Below the pieces are notes generated by a model. That model searched no databases and was not told where the DNA came from. It saw only the letters and a list, made by a program, of their open reading frames with translations. From positions 372,001 through 436,000 of the forward strand of contig NZ_QTTQ01000011.1 in the NCBI RefSeq assembly GCF_003384935.1: 64,000 bases of DNA, given 5' to 3'. The translations under genes were made by a program, and so were the position numbers. Of this stretch, positions 14,429 to 25,029 are shown piece after piece. Numbering within the stretch: the stretch's first letter is position 1; every line of letters starts with the position of its first letter. The DNA comes from Lutibacter oceani. GTDB taxonomy: Bacteria > Bacteroidota > Bacteroidia > Flavobacteriales > Flavobacteriaceae.

Positions 14429-15502
14429 TTAAACCAGCTTCTTTTCTATGTACTCAGAATTCATAATTCGTAAAGCACCCATATATTTCATTTTAAAGCT
14501 TACCAAGTCACCCACTTTATATTTTTTTTTCGTTTTGCTTAAATCAACAACCAACATATCAGAACTAGCGCCAATAAAGGAAATATTTTTATCAACAGGA
14601 ATAATGAATTCAGTTTTAGAAATATCTAAAAGCCCTATATCTAAAATTCCTCTGCTATGATTTCTTCCATAATCTTCCTGATTAATATCAATTGTTTCTC
14701 CCGATGGGTTTTCTTCTAAATTACCATAAGGGACAATAGATTTTTCGGTTATTTCAATAATTTCAGCAAAAAGCAAAAAAACATCATCCTTCATTTTTGG
14801 AACTGTTTTATTTGAAAATAAATCAACCCCGAAAAATAAGGTTTCTCCAATTCTAAAATGATTAACTCCTTTTGGAATTTGTTTTTTTAATAAAAGTGGG
14901 ATCATAACGGAAGATCCACCAGAAACATAATCAATTTTTTTTCCAAATTTAGCTTCAATCAATTGCTCATATAAACTTAATTGAATTAATTTATCTTTGC
15001 TAGGCATTACCCCACTTAAACAATTTAGATTTGCTCCAATACCTGATACTTTAATGTTAGGCAACTCAAATACTTTTTTATAAAACGCCATTAAATGCTC
15101 ACCCAAAATCCCTTCACGTAGATCACCCAATTCTATCATAATAATAATTCGGTGGATTTTTTCTTGTTTTACGGCTTCTTCAGACAGCCATTTTATGGTT
15201 GTATACTCTGTATTAAAACTAACGTCAGCATATTTTACCACCTTAGCTATGCTTCTTTTTGCAGGTGGTTTTATATATACCGTTTCTTTTTTAGGATTTA
15301 TTGATTTTATCTTTTTTAAATTGGATAATCGAGCATCACAAACTTGTTCATCCCCTAAGGATAATACATATTCAAGATATGTTTTATTTCCACAAAGCAT
15401 CTTTAATACAGGTGCCCATTCAATACCATTTTTTTTAAACAATTGTTGAAGATAACTGTAATTTATTGCTAATGATTTTCTGTTTAATGTTATATATGCC
15501 AT
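14429..15502 (-). CDS. Ornithine-racemase-like PLP enzyme (alanine racemase N-domain family)
   Basis: 357-residue fold-type III PLP enzyme. The Schiff-base lysine is Lys34 in APVLKMLCGNK. The segments IIIMIELGDLREG, GANLNCLSG, VSGGSS, RIGETLFFG and the C-terminal SFIGASSDMLVVDLSKTK with MNSEYIEK resemble clostridial ornithine racemase (Orr) closely. It should interconvert L- and D-forms of a basic or related amino acid; the exact substrate is open. It lies two bases downstream of the alr-like gene, as the last gene of a six-gene operon. Confidence 0.8.
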   Translation of the reverse strand: MAYITLNRKSLAINYSYLQQLFKKNGIEWAPVLKMLCGNKTYLEYVLSLGDEQVCDARLSNLKKIKSINPKKETVYIKPPAKRSIAKVVKYADVSFNTEYTTIKWLSEEAVKQEKIHRIIIMIELGDLREGILGEHLMAFYKKVFELPNIKVSGIGANLNCLSGVMPSKDKLIQLSLYEQLIEAKFGKKIDYVSGGSSVMIPLLLKKQIPKGVNHFRIGETLFFGVDLFSNKTVPKMKDDVFLLFAEIIEITEKSIVPYGNLEENPSGETIDINQEDYGRNHSRGILDIGLLDISKTEFIIPVDKNISFIGASSDMLVVDLSKTKKKYKVGDLVSFKMKYMGALRIMNSEYIEKKLV

Positions 15503-15504
15503 AA

Positions 15505-16653
15505 TTATTTTATAATAGTTCTTGGAATGTCTTTATCAATTCTTGAAAGAACTTCGTAGTTAAGCTGATCTGTTTGATTACAAAATGAAGATAGCGGAAT
15601 ATCCAGATCAGTACTTGATCCAATTAAAATAACTTCATCTTTTATAGTAATTGAATCGCTTGACGTTATATCTACCAGAAACATATTCATGTTAATTGTA
15701 CCTATTACGCTATACCTGTTATTGTTAATGATAACTCTTCCTAAATTACTTAAACTCCTGCTATAACCATAACCATAGCCAATCGGAATAGAAGCTACTA
15801 TAGTTTCGTTTTCTGCTAAATATGAACTGCCATATCCAATAAATTCACCTTTAGATACATATTTTATATCCATTATATAAGATTTCCAACTTAATACTGG
15901 TTTTAAAGGATTTGTATTCATGTTATGTTTAGATATATATTTAATAAAAGCTTCTCTGCTTGGCCATAAACCATATTGTAAAATTCCTACTCTAACCATA
16001 TCATAATTTTTGGTAGGAAATGCTAAAACAGCAGCGCTGCATGAGCAGTGAATTTGTTGTGGAATAATTTCTTGAGATTTAAAATACTTAATTGCCTTAT
16101 TAAATACTTTTTGTTGATGTTTTACCCTAACATAGTTATTTAAACTCTCCGCACCGGCAAAATGAGTACATAAACCTTTTACTTTTATAAAATCTTTATT
16201 CGCGTGTACTAACTGAATAATTTGAACCCAATCTTTTTGATTAAATCCAGTTCGGTTCATTCCTGTTTCAATTTCAATATGAATATTTAAAACCTGCTTT
16301 TTTTCTGTTGCTTTTGAAAGCATTTGTTTTAATCTTGCTAAATTGAAAACAAAAAATTCTATAGCATTATCAATAATCCAATCCTCATCATTACTATTAA
16401 TGTCTCCCATAATTAGTACTGTAAAATCCTTTTTTGCTACTTTAAATACTTGTTTTGCTTCAAAAGAACTATATACAGAAAAGTGATTAACATTAAGTTC
16501 CTGCAGTAAAGGCACCATTTCTGTAATGCTATGCCCATAAGCATTTCCTTTTACTACAGATGATATGGTTACAGATTTATCAATTAATGATTTTATTAAA
16601 TCTATATTATTTTTTAATGCTGATTTACTGATTTGAATTACTGAACTATGCAT
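15505..16653 (-). CDS. alr: Alanine racemase
   Basis: 382-residue two-domain alanine racemase. PLP lysine is in SSVVKGNAYGH (Lys35), with MVRVGILQYGLWP in the barrel. The C-terminal beta domain carries the catalytic tyrosine region IGYGSSYLAENE and IPIGYGYGYSR ... INMNMFLVDIT. Its start ATG overlaps the M20 gene stop by 8 bases (ATGCATAG), implying translational coupling. Alr normally makes D-alanine for peptidoglycan, but this copy sits in a catabolic-looking operon beside a second racemase. Whether it is the only alr in the genome, or a broad-specificity paralogue, cannot be told here. Confidence 0.85.
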   Translation of the reverse strand: MHSSVIQISKSALKNNIDLIKSLIDKSVTISSVVKGNAYGHSITEMVPLLQELNVNHFSVYSSFEAKQVFKVAKKDFTVLIMGDINSNDEDWIIDNAIEFFVFNLARLKQMLSKATEKKQVLNIHIEIETGMNRTGFNQKDWVQIIQLVHANKDFIKVKGLCTHFAGAESLNNYVRVKHQQKVFNKAIKYFKSQEIIPQQIHCSCSAAVLAFPTKNYDMVRVGILQYGLWPSREAFIKYISKHNMNTNPLKPVLSWKSYIMDIKYVSKGEFIGYGSSYLAENETIVASIPIGYGYGYSRSLSNLGRVIINNNRYSVIGTINMNMFLVDITSSDSITIKDEVILIGSSTDLDIPLSSFCNQTDQLNYEVLSRIDKDIPRTIIK

Positions 16654-17800
16654 ACATTAATTTGATTATTGTGTAAAACATCTGCACCCCATAAGGTGTT
16701 ATTTCATCAGGAAAATCATAATCTGGGTTGTGCAAGGCTGGTGTTTGTACACCAGAACCTAACCCAAACATTGCACCTTTAAATTGTTGGGTAAATGTTC
16801 CAAAATCTTCACCCCATTTAAATGGCGTTGGCTTTTTTATAATGTTAAAAGAATTAGATTCAGCTGCTTTTAAAATATAATCTACTGCTTTGTCATTATT
16901 ATTATTTGAATCAAATTCGTAAATCCAATCCAACGTATATTTAAGCTGATGTTTTTTACTAATATTTTTTATTAGGGTAGCAATAATTTCTTTTAAGTCA
17001 TTTAATTGATTTGCTGTCCAACATCGTATTGTAAAATGTAATTCCGCGTAATCAGCTGAAATACCATAATCTTTAGATCCTAAAGTAGCATAAACGGTTG
17101 TAATTACTGAAAATGTTTCATTATCTATATTAGTATCAGCTAAAGCTTTAATAGCAACTATTAATTCTTGTAAAGCTAAATCGGGATTGATACCATTCTC
17201 TGGCTCTGCAGCATGAGAGTTTTTTCCTTTTAAGGTAATTTTTAAACTTGTAACTGAAGGTGTAAACGAATTGGTTTTAATAATAATCGCACCTTTATCA
17301 TAGTCAGGTACATTATGTAAAGCAAAAACAAAATCAGGTTTAATTGATTTAAATTTTTCATCCTCCAAAACTGCTTTCGCACCATTTCCGTTTTCTTCTG
17401 CAGGTTGAAATAACAAAATAACTTCCCCTTTTAAAAGTGGATTTAATTTTAAAATTCTTGCCAAACCAATTAGTATAGTAGCATGTCCATCGTGACCACA
17501 CTTATGAGAAATTCCTGGGTATTGAGATGCATGTTCAAAAGTATTTTCCTCTATAATAGGTAGTGCATCTAATTCTGCTCTAAAGAGAATGGTATCTCCT
17601 TTTAAAGAACCCTTAAAAATAGCTGCTACACCATGCCCTCCTAGTTTAGTTATAATAGTTGTTGGATTACATAGTTTTAACTCATCAACAACTGCTTGGG
17701 CTGTTTGCTTCTCGTTATCTGATAATTCAGGGAATTGATGCAATTTCTTTCGGAAATTTGTTAAATAATTTATTTCTTCAATAACTGATGTATTAATCAT
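16646..17800 (-). CDS. M20 family amidohydrolase (N-acyl amino acid / aminoacylase type)
   Basis: 384 residues. Zinc-site motif SHKCGHDGHATI (Cys101, His103) and QPAEENGNGA (Glu136/137) identify the M20D aminoacylase/IAA-amidohydrolase group, and a late HNPDYDFPDE carries the last metal His. This group removes N-acyl groups from amino acids or cleaves small amide conjugates in the cytoplasm. It is followed with overlap by alr and preceded by a symporter, suggesting import of an N-acylated amino acid or peptide, deacylation, then racemisation. The substrate is not readable from sequence. Confidence 0.82.
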   Translation of the reverse strand: MINTSVIEEINYLTNFRKKLHQFPELSDNEKQTAQAVVDELKLCNPTTIITKLGGHGVAAIFKGSLKGDTILFRAELDALPIIEENTFEHASQYPGISHKCGHDGHATILIGLARILKLNPLLKGEVILLFQPAEENGNGAKAVLEDEKFKSIKPDFVFALHNVPDYDKGAIIIKTNSFTPSVTSLKITLKGKNSHAAEPENGINPDLALQELIVAIKALADTNIDNETFSVITTVYATLGSKDYGISADYAELHFTIRCWTANQLNDLKEIIATLIKNISKKHQLKYTLDWIYEFDSNNNNDKAVDYILKAAESNSFNIIKKPTPFKWGEDFGTFTQQFKGAMFGLGSGVQTPALHNPDYDFPDEITPYGVQMFYTIIKLMYA

Positions 17801-17816
17801 AATAATTTTCTTTAGT

Positions 17817-19220
17817 TTATTTTTTAACGACTAAATACGTTAATAAGGACAGTAAAATCCCTACTAAAATCGGATCAAAACCATATGGGATTTCAACTCC
17901 AATAAATGTTAAAATTAATGTAGAAGACCCTCCAATTATCATTGAAGATAAAGCAGCCACAGGTTTTCTTTTTTTTGATATTAACACCCCTATAACAGGT
18001 ATTAAAAGCCCTGAAACCATAAAGGAATAGGATAATAGCATAAGCTCTAGAACACTTTGCATTGTAGTAGCAATAATTATTGCTATTCCCCCAACCAAAA
18101 AAGTAACAATTTGAGAAACTCTTATAGATTTTTTATTAAGTTTTTTAAACCCTAAAATATCTGTCACAAAATTACCAGATGCTGCCAACAAACAACTATC
18201 TGCCGTGGACATTATTGCTGAAAAATAAGCTGACAACATCAACCCCATTAGACCTACTGGCAATACATGCTTTAAAAGTAATGGCATTCCCATTTCAGGA
18301 TCCATTCCTATTTCGCTTTCAAATCCGTCAGAAATAAAAACTCCTTTTGCAGCCGCTACTCGTGCAAATAAACCTAGAATTACCCCCATAAAAGCCATAA
18401 TTGGGTATTCAAAAAGTCCAGCAATAAACCAAGCTTTCTTCGCAGTTTTTTCATCTTTACAGGCATAGATTCTTTGGTAAAGCGTCATTCCAACAAACCA
18501 AATAGGAACTATAATTACAAACCAATTTACTATTTGTACTAATGAAACATTTTGCAATGAGAAATATTTTTGAGGAAGTATTTTAACAATAGTTTCATAA
18601 CCTCCTAAATAACTATATGCAAAAGGAATCCCTATGAATATTAACCCTACCATTAAAATTATCCACTGAAAAGTATCTGTGTAAATTACAGCTTTCATAC
18701 CGCCAAAAACAGTATAAATAAGTGCTACACCTCCCATTATCAATAAAGCCTGATTCAAATCAAGCGAAGGAAATGTACCAACTGCTAACTTTGCACCTGC
18801 AAGAAACTGTGACGAAGTAAAACCTAAATATCCAATAAAGGAAATAATACCGGCAACCATAGCAACTGTAGTTCCATAACTGTGTTTTAAAAATTCAGGA
18901 AAAGTTAAAAAGCCGTGTAAATTACCTAATTTCACCACCTTTGGAATCAAAAAAACAGCGCTTAACCAAGCACCTATAAGTCCTGTAAAGAGCATCCATG
19001 AACCAGAAATTCCCATAACAAATCCCAGTCCACCTAACCCAATTGAAAATCCTCCTCCAACATCTGTTGCCACAACAGATAACCCAACGTGCAAACTACT
19101 CATTTCTCCCCCACCAATATAGTAATCTTTTACAGTTTCATTTTTTTTAAAAAAATAAAACCCAATTCCCAATACTGCAATCATATAAACCGCAAAAACA
19201 ACAATATCTAAAAAAGCCAT
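17817..19220 (-). CDS. Sodium:solute symporter (SSS family)
   Basis: 467 residues with about 13 hydrophobic helices. It starts at the ATG preceding FLDIVVFAVYMIAVLGIGF. YYIGGGEMSSLHVGLSVVATDVGGGFSIGLGG (about 32-64) is the SSS second-helix region, and the family pattern is nearer amino-acid/organic-acid members than the SGLT type at 4417. It lies in the middle of the racemase operon and is the obvious importer for its substrate with Na+. Gap to the M20 gene is 16 bases, to the GNAT gene 5 bases. Confidence 0.82.
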   Translation of the reverse strand: MAFLDIVVFAVYMIAVLGIGFYFFKKNETVKDYYIGGGEMSSLHVGLSVVATDVGGGFSIGLGGLGFVMGISGSWMLFTGLIGAWLSAVFLIPKVVKLGNLHGFLTFPEFLKHSYGTTVAMVAGIISFIGYLGFTSSQFLAGAKLAVGTFPSLDLNQALLIMGGVALIYTVFGGMKAVIYTDTFQWIILMVGLIFIGIPFAYSYLGGYETIVKILPQKYFSLQNVSLVQIVNWFVIIVPIWFVGMTLYQRIYACKDEKTAKKAWFIAGLFEYPIMAFMGVILGLFARVAAAKGVFISDGFESEIGMDPEMGMPLLLKHVLPVGLMGLMLSAYFSAIMSTADSCLLAASGNFVTDILGFKKLNKKSIRVSQIVTFLVGGIAIIIATTMQSVLELMLLSYSFMVSGLLIPVIGVLISKKRKPVAALSSMIIGGSSTLILTFIGVEIPYGFDPILVGILLSLLTYLVVKK

Positions 19221-19225
19221 GGCAT

Positions 19226-19675
19226 TTAGAGTTGTTTTTTAAGCCGCATTTCTAAGTATTTGTTTTCGAAGCCTAATTTTTCATATAAAATTTTAGCTGG
19301 ATTGTTTGGTTCAACATGCAGTGCGATATCACCATCAGCCAATTCAATTGCTTTATTCATTAGTTTTTTACCAAAACCTTTACCTCTTGCATCTTCATGA
19401 ACAGCTATATAAACAAGTATATTTTCTGGAATGTAACCTGACATCCCTGTCTTATTAACAATTGTAACACCTTTAATTTCGCCATTTTCAAGAAGAGCCA
19501 ACACAAAACCTCCCAATTTTTCTTTGGAATCCTTTACTGCAAAATCAAAACATTTGCTAATATCTTCTGTTTTATCTCCATATTCTTGTAGGTGCTTAAA
19601 TAAAAAAGCAACAATTTCTTTTTTTTCTTTTTCCGTTGGTTTAAATTCTTTGTTATAAATTTTAAAATTGTCCAT
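19226..19675 (-). CDS. GNAT family N-acetyltransferase
   Basis: 149 residues with the acetyl-CoA pyrophosphate-binding motif RGKGFGKKLM (97-106) and the C-terminal NPAKILYEKLGFE typical of the fold. It transfers an acetyl group to an amine; the acceptor is unknown, but the operon context (aminoacylase, racemases) points to an amino acid. Its ATG follows the bS21 stop codon with no gap, so the two are surely co-transcribed. Confidence 0.85.
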   Translation of the reverse strand: MDNFKIYNKEFKPTEKEKKEIVAFLFKHLQEYGDKTEDISKCFDFAVKDSKEKLGGFVLALLENGEIKGVTIVNKTGMSGYIPENILVYIAVHEDARGKGFGKKLMNKAIELADGDIALHVEPNNPAKILYEKLGFENKYLEMRLKKQL

Positions 19676-19870
19676 TTATTGGTTTTCTTGATCTTGTAAA
19701 TGTTGTTTGTAAGAAGCTTTTTCTATTTGCTTTCTTCTTTTTACAGATTTTTTTGTGTAATGTTTATTCTCTCTTAAATTATTTAACAGCTTGGTATTTC
19801 TAGTTTTTCTTTTATAACGTTTTAAAGCTCTATCAATATTTTCACCTTCTTTTACTGGTATTATTAACAT
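19676..19870 (-). CDS. rpsU: Ribosomal protein bS21, divergent copy
   Basis: 64 residues starting MLIIPVKEGENIDRALKRYK, clearly bS21. After residue 22 it departs from the flavobacterial type I remember: Lys at 41 where Pro is usual (KKSVKRRKQIEK), no Gly near 27, and a Gln/Glu-rich tail. Tyr54, which I recall as contacting the sequestered anti-SD tail in Bacteroidota ribosomes, is kept. No Shine-Dalgarno precedes the ATG. It is the first gene of the GNAT-symporter-M20-alr-racemase unit; I would expect the housekeeping rpsU beside xerC/hpf, so this may be a second, specialised copy. Confidence 0.85.
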   Translation of the reverse strand: MLIIPVKEGENIDRALKRYKRKTRNTKLLNNLRENKHYTKKSVKRRKQIEKASYKQHLQDQENQ

Positions 19871-19899: not shown

Positions 19900-19930
19900 C
19901 TAAAATACGAAATTGTTTCTACAGAAACAA
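19900..19930 (-). promoter_or_regulatory. Promoter of the rpsU-racemase operon
   Basis: On the minus strand TTG (19928-19930), 20 bases, then TATTTTAG (19900-19907), one mismatch from TAnnTTTG, placed 30 bases before the rpsU ATG. The TTG is inside the palindrome at 19911-19932. Confidence 0.55.
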
Positions 19931-19932: not shown

Positions 19933-20028
19933 AATATTAAACAAGCTTTTATGATTTAAATTTAATAAAAAGAACTAAATATCTAATATTTAATATGATT
20001 TATTAATTATTTTTACAAATAACATATA

Positions 20029-20041
20029 GTTTCTGTAGAAC
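20029..20041. promoter_or_regulatory. Second, imperfect copy of the GTTTCTGTAGAA(A)C site
   Basis: GTTTCTGTAGAAC is the reverse complement of the core of the 19911-19932 palindrome with one base lost. It lies 110 bases upstream, just behind the marR stop codon. A second operator or a coincidence. Confidence 0.4.
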
Positions 20042-20090
20042 ATATTTAAAATTAATAAAAAAATAAAAGCAGTAAAATATTAGAGATTAT

Positions 20091-20567
20091 TTACTCAGAA
20101 GGATATTCTTCAGAAGTTATTATTGGTGAAGCATCAACCTCATCAACTTCCATAATATCAGTTAATATATCAATTCCGTCAATAATTGTTTGTAATTTTT
20201 CAGGAGGAAGCGCTTGTAGTTTTTCACTTAATTTTTGTTGAAAAGTTATTGGTGCAGATTGGATTAACTTCATTCCACTAGCTGTTAATGATATTAATGT
20301 AACCCTTTTATCTGAAGCTTTTGGAAGTTTCGCAACCAATCCTTTCTTTTCCAATCTTCCTAAAATTCCAGAAATAGTACTGGCATTTAAGTTTAAAAAT
20401 TCCTTAAGCTTTGCTGCATTTGTTCTAAAATCTTCTTGTTCAGCTAAAAACTGCAAACATAATAGTTGAGGAATACTTACACCTTGCTCCTTTTCAACTC
20501 GTTTACTTTCTAGGTTAACAGAGCGTACAATTTTTCGCAATTTTATTAAAATATCAATAAAAGTCAT
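20091..20567 (-). CDS. MarR family transcriptional regulator
   Basis: 158 residues. The winged helix-turn-helix covers about 45-110 (LNLNASTISGILGRLEKKGLVAKLPKASDKRVTLISLT), the classic MarR recognition helix and DxRxxxxxLT wing. It is the last gene of the epimerase/oxidase unit (24 bases downstream of the oxidase). Co-location suggests it senses a metabolite of that pathway and controls one or both flanking units. The palindrome at 19911-19932 is the best candidate binding site. Confidence 0.88.
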   Translation of the reverse strand: MTFIDILIKLRKIVRSVNLESKRVEKEQGVSIPQLLCLQFLAEQEDFRTNAAKLKEFLNLNASTISGILGRLEKKGLVAKLPKASDKRVTLISLTASGMKLIQSAPITFQQKLSEKLQALPPEKLQTIIDGIDILTDIMEVDEVDASPIITSEEYPSE

Positions 20568-20591: not shown

Positions 20592-21833
20592 TTACCTGTT
20601 TTTAAATGCTGAAATATCAATAGATGTTTGCATATCAGAAACTAATTCACTCACAAGTTTTCCAGTTGCAGGAGCCAAACTTAAACCCATCATTGCATGA
20701 CCTGTTGAAATAATTAAATTGGAAAACTTTTTCGATTTTTCAATAATTGGTAAACCCGATGGTGTGCAAGGTCTAAAACCAGACCAAATTGTTTCATTTT
20801 CAGGAGTTTGAATTTTTAATTCTGGGTAAAAATTATTAATTTTATCAATAATTCCACCTAATCGCTTCAAATTTATTCGGGTATCGTTCGTATTCGTTAT
20901 TTCTAAAGTTCCTCCAAATCTAATTGTAGAATTTAAGGGTGTTACTGCCACTTTTCCTTCACATAAAATTGATGGAATTATTGGCGAATCAAGTTGTTTT
21001 GAAACATTAAAACTATACCCTTTTCCTGGCAATAATGATAATTTAACACCTAATTTACTTAAAACCTCTGGACTCCAGGAACCTGCTGCAACCACAAAAG
21101 AATCTGCTTTAATTATTCCTTTATTTGTTTCAATTTCCTGAATAGTATTTTCTACTGATTTAAAATTAACAATTGCTGTTTTTGGAAATAATTCAACATT
21201 CATTTTTAACAATTCTTCTTTTAAGAATTTTAAAAACAGATTAGGTGATAAATGTGCATCCGATTTATAATGAACAGCTCCTAAGGCATTTACATTTGTG
21301 TTTTTTTCTAAATTTTGAATTCCATTTTTATCTAAAAAATCAACTTCTATTCCAAAACGTTGTGCTATTTCAGCTGTTCTAATTTCTTCTTCACCAACTT
21401 TTTCGGTTTGGTACAACATCAATAAACCTTTCTCTTCATATAAAAATTGATCGGATATCTTTGCAAATTCCTGATACAATTCTTTACTTAAAAATGAAAG
21501 ATTTTTTAAATGAGCTATAGAATTATCAACATGGTTTTGATTCGAATTTTTATAAAACTTATAGAGCCAAGTAATCAAATCTAAATTAACGCTTGGTTTA
21601 ATGTAAAACGGACTTTTTGCATTGAACATCCATTTAATTCCCTGATGGATAACACCTGGCTGAGCCAATGGAATTATATGACTTGGAACAATCATACCTG
21701 CATTTCCATATGAAGCTCCATCTAACATCTCAGTTTTGTCAATAACAGTTACCTCATTCCCTTCTTTCGCTAAATAATATGCAGCACACAATCCAATAAT
21801 TCCGCCACCAATAATTACAACTTTTTTACTCAT
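20592..21833 (-). CDS. FAD-dependent D-amino acid dehydrogenase (D-hydroxyproline oxidase type)
   Basis: 413 residues of the DadA/DAO fold. The dinucleotide-binding VVIIGGGIIGLCAAYYLA (5-22) starts the protein, and a C-terminal WSGFRPCTPSGLPIIEKS and TGHAMMGLSLAPATG match DadA-type oxidoreductases. It starts four bases after the 4-hydroxyproline epimerase stop codon. In this setting it should oxidise cis-4-hydroxy-D-proline to pyrroline-4-hydroxy-2-carboxylate, passing electrons to the respiratory chain. General D-amino acid activity is the alternative. Confidence 0.82.
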   Translation of the reverse strand: MSKKVVIIGGGIIGLCAAYYLAKEGNEVTVIDKTEMLDGASYGNAGMIVPSHIIPLAQPGVIHQGIKWMFNAKSPFYIKPSVNLDLITWLYKFYKNSNQNHVDNSIAHLKNLSFLSKELYQEFAKISDQFLYEEKGLLMLYQTEKVGEEEIRTAEIAQRFGIEVDFLDKNGIQNLEKNTNVNALGAVHYKSDAHLSPNLFLKFLKEELLKMNVELFPKTAIVNFKSVENTIQEIETNKGIIKADSFVVAAGSWSPEVLSKLGVKLSLLPGKGYSFNVSKQLDSPIIPSILCEGKVAVTPLNSTIRFGGTLEITNTNDTRINLKRLGGIIDKINNFYPELKIQTPENETIWSGFRPCTPSGLPIIEKSKKFSNLIISTGHAMMGLSLAPATGKLVSELVSDMQTSIDISAFKNR

Positions 21834-21836
21834 CTT

Positions 21837-22847
21837 TTATAAAACTTGAAATCCGTGCGCATAAGGATCGTCTTCATCGTCAATAATAATGGTGTTATAT
21901 CCATATATTTTTGCCCAACCTTGTATACTTGGCACAATTGCTTTTCTATCATCTAAGGTCGTTTCTTCTTCAATGCTACCAATAAATTTAGAACCAATAT
22001 AACTTTCGTGAATGTATTCTTCTCCTTTCTTCAATTTCCCTTTTGCATATAATTGAGCCATTCTTGCTGAAGTTCCTGTTCCGCAAGGTGAACGATCTAT
22101 CGCTTTATCGCCATAAAAAACGGCATTTCTTCCAGATGAAGTTTCATCAATGGGTTTTCCAGTCCACATAATATGACTCACATCTTTAATTGTTTCATCT
22201 TCAGGATGTACAAATAAATTCAGATAATTTTCATTGATTCTTTTTCTAACAATTTGAGAATACTGAATTAATTTACTTGCAGTAAAATCTTGTACTCCAC
22301 TAAAGTTTTTTTGAGAATCTACAATTGCATAATAATTCCCCCCATAAGCTACATCAAAAGTAATTTCACCCAATTCAGGACAATCAATTGTTAAATTTTC
22401 TGCTGCTAAATAAGATTTTACATTGGTTAATTTTACCCAATCTACTTTTTTACCTGTTTGCTGATATTCAATTTCTACCAACCCAGCAGGTGCTTCCATT
22501 TTAAGTTTTCCTGGTTTTTTTGGAGTTACCAATCCCTCTTCAATAGCAATAGTTATTGTACCAATTGTACCGTGACCGCACATTGGCAAACAACCTGAAG
22601 TTTCAATAAATAAAATTGAAAAATCATTAGCTTCATTATGTGGAGGAAATAAAATACTTCCACTCATCATATCGTGCCCACGCGGCTCAAACATCAAGCC
22701 TGTTCGAATCCAGTCGAATTCTTTTAAAAAATGCTGACGCTTTTCGCTCATATTTGCACCTTTTAAATTTGGACCTCCACCCGCAATAACTCTTACAGGA
22801 TTTCCGCAAGTATGTGCATCAACACAAAAAAAAGTTTTTTTACTCAT
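21837..22847 (-). CDS. 4-hydroxyproline 2-epimerase (proline racemase family)
   Basis: 336 residues. Both catalytic cysteines are present: PMCGHGTIG (Cys90) and DRSPCGTGTS (Cys255). Two cysteines separate epimerases/racemases from trans-3-hydroxyproline dehydratases, in which one is Thr. The reaction is trans-4-hydroxy-L-proline to cis-4-hydroxy-D-proline. The oxidase follows, and HypD and KGSA dehydrogenase lie upstream in the same direction, which favours hydroxyproline over proline as substrate. Confidence 0.88.
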   Translation of the reverse strand: MSKKTFFCVDAHTCGNPVRVIAGGGPNLKGANMSEKRQHFLKEFDWIRTGLMFEPRGHDMMSGSILFPPHNEANDFSILFIETSGCLPMCGHGTIGTITIAIEEGLVTPKKPGKLKMEAPAGLVEIEYQQTGKKVDWVKLTNVKSYLAAENLTIDCPELGEITFDVAYGGNYYAIVDSQKNFSGVQDFTASKLIQYSQIVRKRINENYLNLFVHPEDETIKDVSHIMWTGKPIDETSSGRNAVFYGDKAIDRSPCGTGTSARMAQLYAKGKLKKGEEYIHESYIGSKFIGSIEEETTLDDRKAIVPSIQGWAKIYGYNTIIIDDEDDPYAHGFQVL

Positions 22848-22946: not shown

Positions 22947-23309
22947 TTATTTCAAATCTATAATTTTTGTATTTAATGAATGTAACACATTAAAAATATC
23001 TTTTTTCACTTCTTCATCAGAAAATCGAATAAATTTCACTCCTTCTTTTTCTAACCTGCCCTGCCTTTTGGCATCATAAAAATATTTATAATCATGGCTA
23101 CTTCCATCAATTTCTATTGCTAAACCAATTTCATGACAATAAAAATCCACAATATATTCTAACATTGGAACTTGTCTATGAAATTGTACTTTCAATGCTC
23201 TTTTTTTAATATTATTCCATAATAAAACTTCAGAAAGTGTTGAGTTTTTTCTTAAATATTTCGCATATTCTCTTAGTTTTGGATCATATGGGATAATTTT
23301 ATTTCTCAT
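22947..23309 (-). CDS. DUF559 endonuclease-like protein
   Basis: 120 residues from the ATG at 23309. The PD-(D/E)xK-like DUF559 domain (Vsr-related) is seen: LRKNSTLSEVLLWNNIKKRAL, FHRQVPMLEYIVDFYCHEIGLAIEIDGSSHD and GVKFIRFSDEEV, with Asp and Glu-x-Asp as likely metal ligands. The frame could be opened 39 bases earlier, but that would overlap the DUF885 gene by 50 bases instead of 11. Such genes are often scattered as isolated, repeat-flanked insertions in Bacteroidota, and here one interrupts a catabolic operon. Biological role unknown. Confidence 0.8.
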   Translation of the reverse strand: MRNKIIPYDPKLREYAKYLRKNSTLSEVLLWNNIKKRALKVQFHRQVPMLEYIVDFYCHEIGLAIEIDGSSHDYKYFYDAKRQGRLEKEGVKFIRFSDEEVKKDIFNVLHSLNTKIIDLK

Positions 23310-25029
23310 TTTTAACTTTATTAATATAATCTCGTATCCTTTTTTCAAGAATGGAAAGTGTAACTGTTCCTTCTTCTAAAATTATTTCATGAAAAGCTCT
23401 AATATCAAATTTTGTTCTTAATTCTTTTTCAACCAAATCTCTCATTTCTCTAATTTTCAATTCTCCAATTTTATATGAAAGCGCCTGCCCTGGCCAAGAG
23501 ATATAACGATCAATTTCTGTATTTACTTCATGCAACGATAAGGCTGTGTTGGATTTTAAATATTCAACAGCTTGTTCTCTTGTCCAGTTTTTTGAATGTA
23601 TTCCCGTATCAACAACCAACCTGCAAGCTCGCCACATTTCATAAGTATATTTTCCAAATTTTTGATAAGGAGTTATATAAATCCCCATGTCATTTCCTAA
23701 AAATTCTGAATACAACCCCCATCCTTCACCATAAGCCGACAAGTATAAATTACGCCTAAATTGAGGAATTTCATCACCCAACTCATTATTTAAACTCATT
23801 TGTAAATGATGACCCGGAACGGCCTCATGTAATGTTAAAGAAGGTAAAATATATAATGGTCTACTTGGCAAATTATAGGTATTTACCCAATAATAGCCTG
23901 GCTGTGTATCACTATTTGAAGGACTGTATCTTCCTCCAGTATATTTTGGTGCAATTACCGATGGAACTGGAGTAACCCCATATGGTTTTCTTGGCAAAGT
24001 TTTAAAAAATCTAGGTAATTGTGCATCTATTTTTTTTGCTATATTTCTAGCTTCCTTCAATAAATTATCACCTGTTGTAACGTAAAATTGCTTGTCAGTT
24101 CTTAAAAAAGTTAAAAATTCAGAAAAAGAACCTTTAAATCCAACTTCATTAATAATTTGCTGCATTTCTGCTTTAATTCTTGCAACTTCTTTTAAACCTA
24201 TTTGGTGTACTTCTTCTGCTGAAATAGTTGAAGTAGTATAATAATTAACCCTATTTTGATAATATGCCGCTCCATTTGGTTGATTTGAAACTCCACCTCT
24301 TTCTCTTGTTTTTACAAAATATTCATTCTCGAAAAAATCTTTAATTAATTTAAACTGAGGAATTACCTTTGTTTCAATTACAACTTTCGCAGCAGTTAGT
24401 AGGGAGTCTTTTTGTTCTTGGGAACTGTTAGAAGCTAAATTTTTAAAAGGAGAAAAATAAAAACTATTTGTATAATCATCAACTATTTGACTATTATAAG
24501 TTTCTTCAAAATTATTGAAAATTATTTTTGGTTGTGAAATGCCTTTTTCTAATCCTTTTCTCATTAAAGAAATATGCTGTTCAACAAATAATGGCAACGC
24601 ATTTAATTTATTTAGGTAATCTACAAATTGTTGATGTGTTGAAAAGCTTCTAACTTGATAAGGCAAACTGGTATGAAAACCCGAATCTGATAATAAGGGA
24701 TTTAAATAAGCATCAAATTGGTAAAAATCAATATTTTCTTGAAGTACAAACTTTAATAGCTCTAAAGATATTTTTTCTGATTCAGATAAATCTTCTGAGA
24801 TAACTTTAGATAATTCGGCTAATTCTTTTTTAGCAAAATCAGCCTCTTTTTTATAATATTGCTCGGTATATAATCCTAATGGAAATTCTTTTTCATCATA
24901 GCCTTTATGATTTTCATAAGAATTGATACTCGCCTGTAACTCTGTTGATGCAGCATTATCAGTTTCATTTCCTGATGTGCAAGCAATGAAAGTAATTAAT
25001 AAAATGATAAACCCAGATGTATATTTCAT
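23299..25029 (-). CDS. DUF885 family lipoprotein (metallopeptidase-like)
   Basis: 576 residues. Lipoprotein signal with Cys17 (TFIACTSG). The DUF885 hallmark HEAVPGHHLQ (about residue 410) resembles a zinc-peptidase HExxH-type helix, followed by the conserved AYGEGWGLYSEFLG and a late PGQALSYKIGELKI. DUF885 proteins are presumed zinc peptidases; activity has rarely been tested. It sits 5 bases downstream of KGSA dehydrogenase, in the hydroxyproline operon, so a role in releasing hydroxyproline-containing peptides in the periplasm is plausible but unproven. Confidence 0.8.
   Translation of the reverse strand: MKYTSGFIILLITFIACTSGNETDNAASTELQASINSYENHKGYDEKEFPLGLYTEQYYKKEADFAKKELAELSKVISEDLSESEKISLELLKFVLQENIDFYQFDAYLNPLLSDSGFHTSLPYQVRSFSTHQQFVDYLNKLNALPLFVEQHISLMRKGLEKGISQPKIIFNNFEETYNSQIVDDYTNSFYFSPFKNLASNSSQEQKDSLLTAAKVVIETKVIPQFKLIKDFFENEYFVKTRERGGVSNQPNGAAYYQNRVNYYTTSTISAEEVHQIGLKEVARIKAEMQQIINEVGFKGSFSEFLTFLRTDKQFYVTTGDNLLKEARNIAKKIDAQLPRFFKTLPRKPYGVTPVPSVIAPKYTGGRYSPSNSDTQPGYYWVNTYNLPSRPLYILPSLTLHEAVPGHHLQMSLNNELGDEIPQFRRNLYLSAYGEGWGLYSEFLGNDMGIYITPYQKFGKYTYEMWRACRLVVDTGIHSKNWTREQAVEYLKSNTALSLHEVNTEIDRYISWPGQALSYKIGELKIREMRDLVEKELRTKFDIRAFHEIILEEGTVTLSILEKRIRDYINKVKNEK

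Follow-up and report, generated by a model that had tools for sequence, protein, structure and literature searches.

A paralog of bS21 heads an amino acid operon in Lutibacter oceani

A 64,000-nucleotide stretch of the Lutibacter oceani genome (contig NZ_QTTQ01000011.1, positions 372,001 to 436,000; hereafter the window) carries on its minus strand six closely packed genes that, judged from their sequence, are one real operon-like unit: a gene for the small-subunit ribosomal protein bS21 (rpsU), followed by genes for an acetyltransferase, a symporter, a deacylase-like enzyme and two racemases. The leading gene is a paralog (bS21p) of the housekeeping bS21 gene, and it lacks the extended Shine-Dalgarno (SD) sequence that precedes the latter. 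We tentatively propose, at somewhat less than even confidence, that induction of the operon would make an unregulated bS21 isoform, which would enter the 30S subunit and turn down the housekeeping copy. The steps of this isoform switch are drawn from the anatomy of the locus and from work on Flavobacterium johnsoniae.

The six open reading frames had been described in a first-pass annotation of the window, whose coordinates are exact and whose family assignments are confirmed by Pfam and NCBIfam profiles. The bS21p gene (19676-19870; 64 amino acids, no SD, Tyr54 present) exceeds the curated cut-offs of both PF01165 (59.5 bits versus 27) and TIGR00030 (49.2 versus 28.95). Behind it on the same strand follow a GNAT acetyltransferase recognized by profile match (19226-19675), an SSS-family sodium:solute symporter (17817-19220), an M20 amidohydrolase resembling N-acyl amino acid deacylases (16646-17800; PF01546/PF07687), an alanine racemase family enzyme (Alr; 15505-16653; PF01168 and PF00842) and an Orr-like fold-type III racemase (14429-15502; PF01168). 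From bS21p to the Orr-like gene, the gaps are 0, 5, 16, -8 and 2 bases, which bears out the tight spacing, the abutment of rpsU and GNAT and the 8-base overlap of M20 and alr noted earlier; the ATG of GNAT starts right after the TAA stop of rpsU.

Curated cut-offs are also exceeded by Alr (TIGR00492, 289.9 bits versus 168) and by the M20 protein (TIGR01891, 232.1 versus 153.75). The symporter belongs to the SSF family PF00474, but scores below the cut-off of the PutP model TIGR02121 (139.9 versus 515.5 bits). The Orr-like enzyme resembles Orr in a near full-length match to NF040742 and in a predicted fold-type III racemase fold, and differs in its score, which at 309.7 bits is far under the cut-off of 480. 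Its AlphaFold2 model (predicted local distance difference test [pLDDT] score 88.3) has alanine and serine racemases as best PDB folds, with lysine racemase at rank 15, and K34, which we take to be the pyridoxal phosphate lysine of the family, is invariant in 31 sequences. The GNAT protein scores 33.5 bits against the RimI model TIGR01575 (cut-off 86.4), and its AlphaFold2 model (pLDDT 90.9) has 513 PDB fold matches at E<=0.001, an unspecific set that includes RimI and NatC.

Two bS21 genes with contrasting translation starts

The L. oceani genome holds two bS21 genes, one heading the operon and one on contig C1, where it stands between genes that we take, by their sequences, to encode acyl-CoA dehydrogenase on one side and XerC and HPF on the other. 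The ATG of this C1 copy is preceded by GAAAGGAGGTG, and that of the operon copy by an A-rich stretch that has no SD. Calculated pairing with the anti-SD is +1.6 kcal/mol for the operon copy and -19.3 kcal/mol for the C1 copy; with an SD-autoregulated rpsU defined by an exceptionally strong SD (below -13 kcal/mol), the C1 copy falls within the definition and the operon copy outside it. Flavobacteriales autoregulate bS21 through the extended SD of rpsU, and in F. johnsoniae this SD acts as the sensor of an autoregulatory circuit driven by bS21-free ribosomes, while Tyr54 of the protein stacks on A1534 (PMC9976891). By alignment, the operon bS21p shares the Tyr54 of Flavobacteriales rpsU, which may stack on A1534 in the same way.

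Since the xerC-locus copy bears the extended SD and the operon copy does not, the operon gene is a paralog rather than the housekeeping bS21, and, lacking this SD, it would stand outside an autoregulatory circuit of the F. johnsoniae type. The first-pass annotation had named the leading gene rpsU and had missed both the housekeeping bS21 on contig C1 and the conserved promoter-operator-like element and MarR gene just upstream of the operon. The bS21 at the xerC locus rules out the operon as the housekeeping rpsU operon. The main bS21 supply of the cell is therefore not tied to the operon; a tie between translation and a nutrient stays a reasonable proposal. Relative to the autoregulated rpsU of F. 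johnsoniae, the likeness lies in Tyr54 within a bS21 of the same family and in an extended SD of like kind, which the housekeeping L. oceani copy carries beside xerC, whereas the operon copy has diverged, is SD-less and lies in a catabolic operon behind a palindrome of its own.

A conserved palindrome upstream of the operon

Upstream of bS21p lies a palindromic operator-like site, O1 (TTGTTTCTACAGAAACAA, 19913-19930), whose core is conserved in 15/15 Lutibacter loci. Directly downstream of it is a -7-like element, TATTTTAG (19900-19907, minus strand), one mismatch away from the flavobacterial promoter consensus TAnnTTTG (PMC9723704), and the O1 palindrome occupies the space between a TTG and this element. 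A second, imperfect palindromic site, O2 (20027-20044), lies 114 bases from O1. The perfect GTTTCTRYAGAAAC palindrome stands 49-60 bases before bS21p in all 15 Lutibacter loci, within a MarR-bS21p stretch that otherwise aligns poorly, and it occurs in 35 of 252 loci, all of this locus type. The second site is found 113-115 bases upstream in 11 of the 15 loci and at 105 bases in one; the other three have none with up to 3 mismatches allowed. The window has two sites where chance would give 0.25 matches, and two were reached in 2 of 100 shuffles.

The position of the conserved palindrome, over a promoter-like element and immediately before bS21p, makes bS21p the probable first gene of the transcript. 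A transcription start between rpsU and GNAT, which the first-pass annotation had named as a way for rpsU to be expressed alone, finds no intergenic room (0 bases), and the promoter-like element is upstream of rpsU; this result concerns the intergenic space and does not extend to a promoter inside rpsU. A sigma-70 promoter scan of the region, of a kind that does not cover Bacteroidota promoters, stayed at chance level (39 found versus 37.4 expected).

Upstream of both sites is a gene for a MarR-family regulator, the candidate repressor of the operon (20091-20567, minus strand; PF01047, 46.5 bits versus a cut-off of 24.6). It is found at 14 of the 15 Lutibacter loci, being in two pieces in L052 and absent from L046. 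MarR homologs also occur near GNAT-Orr modules at L187, L198, L216 and L232. At L216, from Fulvivirga, a 47% identical MarR precedes SSS-GNAT-M20-Alr-Orr without bS21, and the space between MarR and SSS holds a pair of comparable sites, each with 2 mismatches; such paired sites beside MarR favor MarR as the predicted binder. No comparably close site pair was found with the MarR homologs of L187, L198 and L232.

The paralog across the Flavobacteriaceae

Of 249 Flavobacteriaceae genomes, at least 98 have two or more bS21 genes, as picked by eye from the match rows; the set comprised 99 genomes that were examined again, together with G000 and G030, and in G083, G097 and G254 the second match is under the curated cut-off. 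Outside the family, the same is true of 9 of about 377 genomes (class sample of 396, counted by eye). We read 122 bS21 loci: the two of L. oceani, 20 from Lutibacter and 100 from 48 other genera with at least two copies. Of the multi-copy genomes, a first set of 50 was covered except for G083, G097 and the second copy of G176, and a second set of 49 was covered in part, through G231, G273 and G277. For all 55 copies with acyl-CoA dehydrogenase/xerC/hpf as neighbors, the energy of anti-SD pairing is between -17.2 and -22.3 kcal/mol; for all 67 copies elsewhere it is no stronger than -10.2 kcal/mol, and for 66 of these no stronger than -6.2. The split by neighborhood is thus the split by pairing. 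The labels canonical and paralog, as used for the tree, the ratio of nonsynonymous to synonymous substitution rates (dN/dS) and the divergence profile, were set by a pairing-energy threshold, and neighborhood gives the identical division. In one paralog, L135 of G159, residue 54 is His and the gene carries GGAGGA, an SD-like site of moderate strength (-10.2 kcal/mol).

In a 64-column alignment, the canonical copies form one clade (support 100/97). Tyr54 is kept in 55/55 canonical and 63/67 paralog proteins, and the mean Jensen-Shannon divergence between the two groups is 0.09 over residues 1-22, 0.56 over residues 23-37 and 0.21 over residues 38-62. As the altered segment lies near the expected mRNA site, this pattern suggests that the isoform may change initiation preference. 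The median dN/dS of bS21p is 0.14 (14 Lutibacter copies; 69 usable of 91 pairs), and on these substitution rates the gene is under purifying selection. The number of bS21 copies differs between close relatives.

A comparable divergence has been described for bS21 of Bacteroidetes phages, which departs at residues 21, 23, 25 and 28, within a helix at the expected mRNA site, keeps Tyr54 or another aromatic residue and is proposed to replace the host protein (PMC9723584). The divergent residues 23-37 of the paralog overlap these positions, and the likeness to phage bS21 consists of the aromatic residue at 54 and divergence in the region of residues 21-28; the Lutibacter paralog differs in being chromosomal, at recurring loci. 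A recent phage source of the operon bS21 was rejected: a tblastn search of 50,697 phage records (the search covered phage records only, with the viral contig collection outside it) gave 10 matches at 40-58% identity, all below 60%, the best of them, at 58.1%, from a 635-kb uncultured phage. Five phage bS21 pieces were compared, of which L253 and L254 depart from the canonical residues at 23-24 and three keep the F-D/E type. An SD-like site precedes one of the five (L254, -12.1 kcal/mol) and is missing from the other four.

Chromosomal sites and a linked sigma factor

Outside Lutibacter, 40 of 52 paralog loci carry at least one of four common neighbor families, in the common order Vut_1/YhhQ-type transporter, 889-amino-acid AsmA-like protein, sigma factor gene (sigma2, at part of the loci), bS21p, DUF2797 and GH3. 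Pfam confirms Vut_1 (called YhhQ here), DUF2797 and GH3; the 889-amino-acid protein, which has no Pfam match at E 1e-5, is presumably AsmA-like. The sigma2 gene, a second RpoD-like sigma gene, lies directly upstream of bS21p in 23 of 67 paralog loci (for example, L062, L064, L073, L075 and L097), with gaps of 9-211 bases, and nearby in 3 further loci. Among 20 genomes searched, the four that have the linked sigma gene (G071, G072, G084 and G094) each have another RpoD-like gene elsewhere. L. oceani too has a second RpoD-like sigma (64% to sigma2; G000:C3:635213-636070), which is not beside bS21p. The pairing of an alternative sigma with an alternative bS21 resembles the rpsU-dnaG-rpoD operon of Escherichia coli, described in a review (PMC10931766). 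At L126 and L129, divergent bS21 genes occur near cold-shock proteins and divergent RpoD-like sigmas, with the domains confirmed for L126.

The Lutibacter unit occupies another site, after RuvC-HemW-DUF4230-YjbR and a hydroxyproline cluster. In the window, this cluster includes a DadA-like D-amino acid dehydrogenase (20592-21833, minus strand; profile match), a 4-hydroxyproline 2-epimerase (21837-22847, minus strand; over the NF010578 cut-off) and, beyond the epimerase, an aldehyde dehydrogenase, a DHDPS-family protein and an opposite-strand AraC regulator, which by pathway knowledge we take together to be a hydroxyproline-degradation cluster. A DUF559 open reading frame at 22947-23348 overlaps the 3' end of a DUF885 gene (23299-25029).

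Within the genus, 24 of 38 genomes have the GNAT, and in each of them bS21p is its direct upstream neighbor, the two matches being no more than about 40 bases apart. All 13 other Lutibacter genomes examined (G306 was outside this examination) have a single bS21, the SD-bearing xerC copy. Orr is found in 24/24 GNAT-bearing genomes versus 0/14 of the remainder, with exceptions as to its state or position: a fragment in G023, pieces in G014, another contig in G033 and several kilobases downstream in G032 and G035. SSS, M20 and Alr vary in presence among the loci. No half state, with bS21p but no GNAT or the reverse, was seen in Lutibacter. Mapped on an XerC+HPF tree of 36 genomes, with G015 and G306 omitted, presence and absence require 7 changes, of which 5 or more are forced.

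The metabolic module and its link to bS21

The gene order is not unique to L. oceani, an outcome that the first-pass annotation had said would refute its reading had it been so: the complete six genes recur in order in five further loci, namely L153, L163, L169 and L170, from the best 80 of 526 confirmed relatives kept from a GNAT alignment search, and L250. Several of the 80 loci belong to genomes that were also read in the genome sample (for example, L153 and L034), and the Alr of L163 is only 42% identical. bS21p is directly upstream of GNAT in 29 of the 80 loci, a figure that leans to close relatives given that the best 80 of 526 were kept. All 29 are labelled Lutibacter, other Flavobacteriaceae or Flavobacteria/Flavobacteriales metagenome-assembled genomes (MAGs). 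Species with bS21p-GNAT include Lutibacter flavus, L. litoralis, L. maritimus and Mangrovimonas spongiae. In Mangrovimonas (L169, L170) and the related L250, the five-gene module lies between sigma2-bS21p and DUF2797, and in Mesonia and Salegentibacter a shorter module lies between bS21p and DUF2797. Xanthomarina and Formosa (L175-L178) have sigma2-bS21p-GNAT with no Orr at the locus, and an Orr match is absent genome-wide from two Xanthomarina-genus genomes (G094 and G283). The order GNAT-SSS-M20-Alr-Orr is also found without bS21 in other Bacteroidota (L188, L194, L204 and L220).

At one further locus, L251 (G273), a bS21 that belongs to another clade (on a short alignment) stands 26 bases before GNAT-SSS-Orr at an RuvC-HemW-YjbR site; G078 (L252), a congener of G273, has GNAT at the matching site and no bS21. 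On a tree of 75 GNAT+Orr rows, all bS21-linked modules but L251 form one clade of 26 rows (100/100); L251 falls with bS21-free modules of Sinomicrobium, and the link label needs 2 changes. Read from this tree, the linkage may have arisen by two gains, or by one gain with later losses in Sinomicrobium and Cytophagales. Two independent origins are not claimed here as shown, as a single gain with losses fits and L251 shares the RuvC-HemW-YjbR neighborhood of Lutibacter.

Other arrangements of the module were seen in passing. Thirteen Cytophagales loci (L190, L197, L200, L202, L203, L209, L212, L221, L222 and L228-L231) have SSS-GNAT-Orr behind three genes, two of which, in L190, have the flavoprotein and iron-sulfur domains of succinate dehydrogenase/fumarate reductase. 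Two GNAT-Orr pairs labelled Desulfobulbaceae (L205 and L211; one MAG, identical) fall within Bacteroidota on the tree and are perhaps misbinned. A literature search on ornithine racemase operons in Bacteroidetes gave nothing relevant among the best 12 of 10,022 papers.

Does the operon change the ribosome?

In the sequence of events that we tentatively propose, the unit would be a MarR-linked operon, headed by a second bS21, for the uptake, deacylation and racemization of an amino acid derivative. The inducer, presumably the substrate, would lift the MarR-type repressor from the TTTCTRYAGAAA site, and ordinary ribosomes with an occluded anti-SD would then make bS21p from its SD-less start, along with the enzymes that follow. 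This isoform would enter 30S subunits; with fewer bS21-free ribosomes, the SD-dependent synthesis of housekeeping bS21 would fall, and part of the ribosome pool would change isoform for as long as the substrate is present. A fuller version, which we regard as doubtful, is that of a nutrient-inducible ribosome, in which the isoform re-equips the 30S subunit, silences housekeeping bS21 through its SD and changes which mRNAs are initiated during nutrient use; as part of that joint reading, a widespread second bS21 would be wired to sigma2 or, in Lutibacter, Mangrovimonas and their kin, to an amino acid operon.

Several observations weigh against the proposed isoform switch. By tblastn and hidden Markov model search, 51 of the 80 GNAT loci have no bS21 nearby, and Orr accompanies GNAT in 50 of these 51. 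The view of the first-pass annotation that rpsU leads a single metabolic set stands as to the operon-like unit, while the metabolic genes themselves are a separate Bacteroidota module. In the family, a GNAT match occurs in 29 of 249 genomes and adjoins a bS21 paralog in 10 of the 29; by coordinates, these 10 are all among the 15 matches above 150 bits, and none are among the 14 weaker ones. Hardly any of the 40 paralogs at the common site have the module, L075, L090 and L094 being loci with at least GNAT. As the module is often without bS21 and most paralogs are without the module, neither needs the other. Within Lutibacter, the operon is missing from G001 but present in its closest sister MAGs, perhaps because of a gap in the assembly, and the co-retention may have the ordinary explanation of block deletion or transfer of one locus. 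G002 keeps the palindrome sites without MarR at the locus, and MarR binding is a prediction. All pairing energies use an assumed anti-SD sequence; searches for the 16S 3' tail gave no match, either with one pattern in the L. oceani genome or with a different one in five genomes. For the phage parallel we rely on the published description (PMC9723584), only 2 of the 5 phage pieces clearly differing at residues 23-24.

The main rival, a real possibility to which we give appreciable but minority weight, is that bS21p is a dispensable extra dose of the protein, behind whose ready promoter and A-rich start the GNAT-Orr genes settled, leaving a link without function. This would fit the YhhQ-AsmA-like-[sigma2]-bS21p-DUF2797-GH3 site, where most genera examined have bS21p without the module and where the module lies between bS21p and DUF2797 in Mangrovimonas, Mesonia and Salegentibacter, and it would fit the variable bS21 copy number among close relatives and the case of G078, whose GNAT, with no bS21, occupies the position of bS21-GNAT in its congener G273. 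It is harder to reconcile with a link that is found at two chromosomal sites (sigma2 and RuvC-HemW-YjbR) and in two places on the tree (the 26-row clade, at 100/100, and L251, whose bS21 is, on a short alignment, of another clade), with the conserved palindrome before bS21p in Lutibacter and with purifying selection on bS21p.

Two other explanations start from the proteins themselves. The acetyltransferase could modify bS21p or another 30S protein, making a post-translational ribosome switch in which the metabolic genes are secondary. In every case where the module follows bS21p, GNAT is indeed the next gene (gaps of -20 to 12 bases in the 18 loci measured and 26 in L251), Xanthomarina and Formosa keep sigma2-bS21p-GNAT with no Orr at the locus (and G094 and G283 with no Orr at all), and there is weak similarity to RimI (33.5 bits versus 86.4), with RimI and NatC among many matched folds. 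Those structural hits lack specificity (513 at E<=0.001), however, and the presence of Orr in 50/51 loci without bS21 makes the racemase the commoner partner of GNAT, and we consider this explanation quite unlikely. Alternatively, bS21p could act off the ribosome by binding and regulating the operon mRNA or some other RNA, as bS21 has been reported in the OLE ribonucleoprotein complex of Bacillota (PMC12054373). Against this stand the retention of Tyr54 and most of the C-terminal half and the clear PF01165/TIGR00030 membership, which leave such a role very improbable.

Relation to known systems and implications

bS21 isoforms and bS21 autoregulation are each known separately (PMC9578407, PMC9976891, PMC10931766, PMC10783764). 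In Francisella, bS21 homologs make ribosomes heterogeneous and change the proteome (PMC9578407). The likeness lies in several bS21 isoforms per genome, L. oceani having two bS21 genes; Francisella is of another lineage, and the abstract of that study mentions no homolog heading a catabolic operon and no SD contrast (PMC9578407). Bacteroidota are not named in the list of groups with extra bS21 copies given in PMC9976891. Our searches of open-license full texts found no SD-less bS21 paralog of Bacteroidota or one heading a catabolic operon, nor the family-wide pattern of a second bS21 and of sigma2-bS21p.

It has long been asked whether bacteria make specialized ribosomes to a purpose, and the two isoforms described here offer a clean, testable case. 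What sets them apart is precisely the extended SD, the element known to sense ribosomes without bS21; their masses distinguish them, a recognizable palindrome precedes one of the two genes, and a single genus holds sister species with and without that gene. The self-limiting switch of bS21 is absent from the spare copy that heads the operon, and this points to a possible change of the ribosomes whenever the operon is on.

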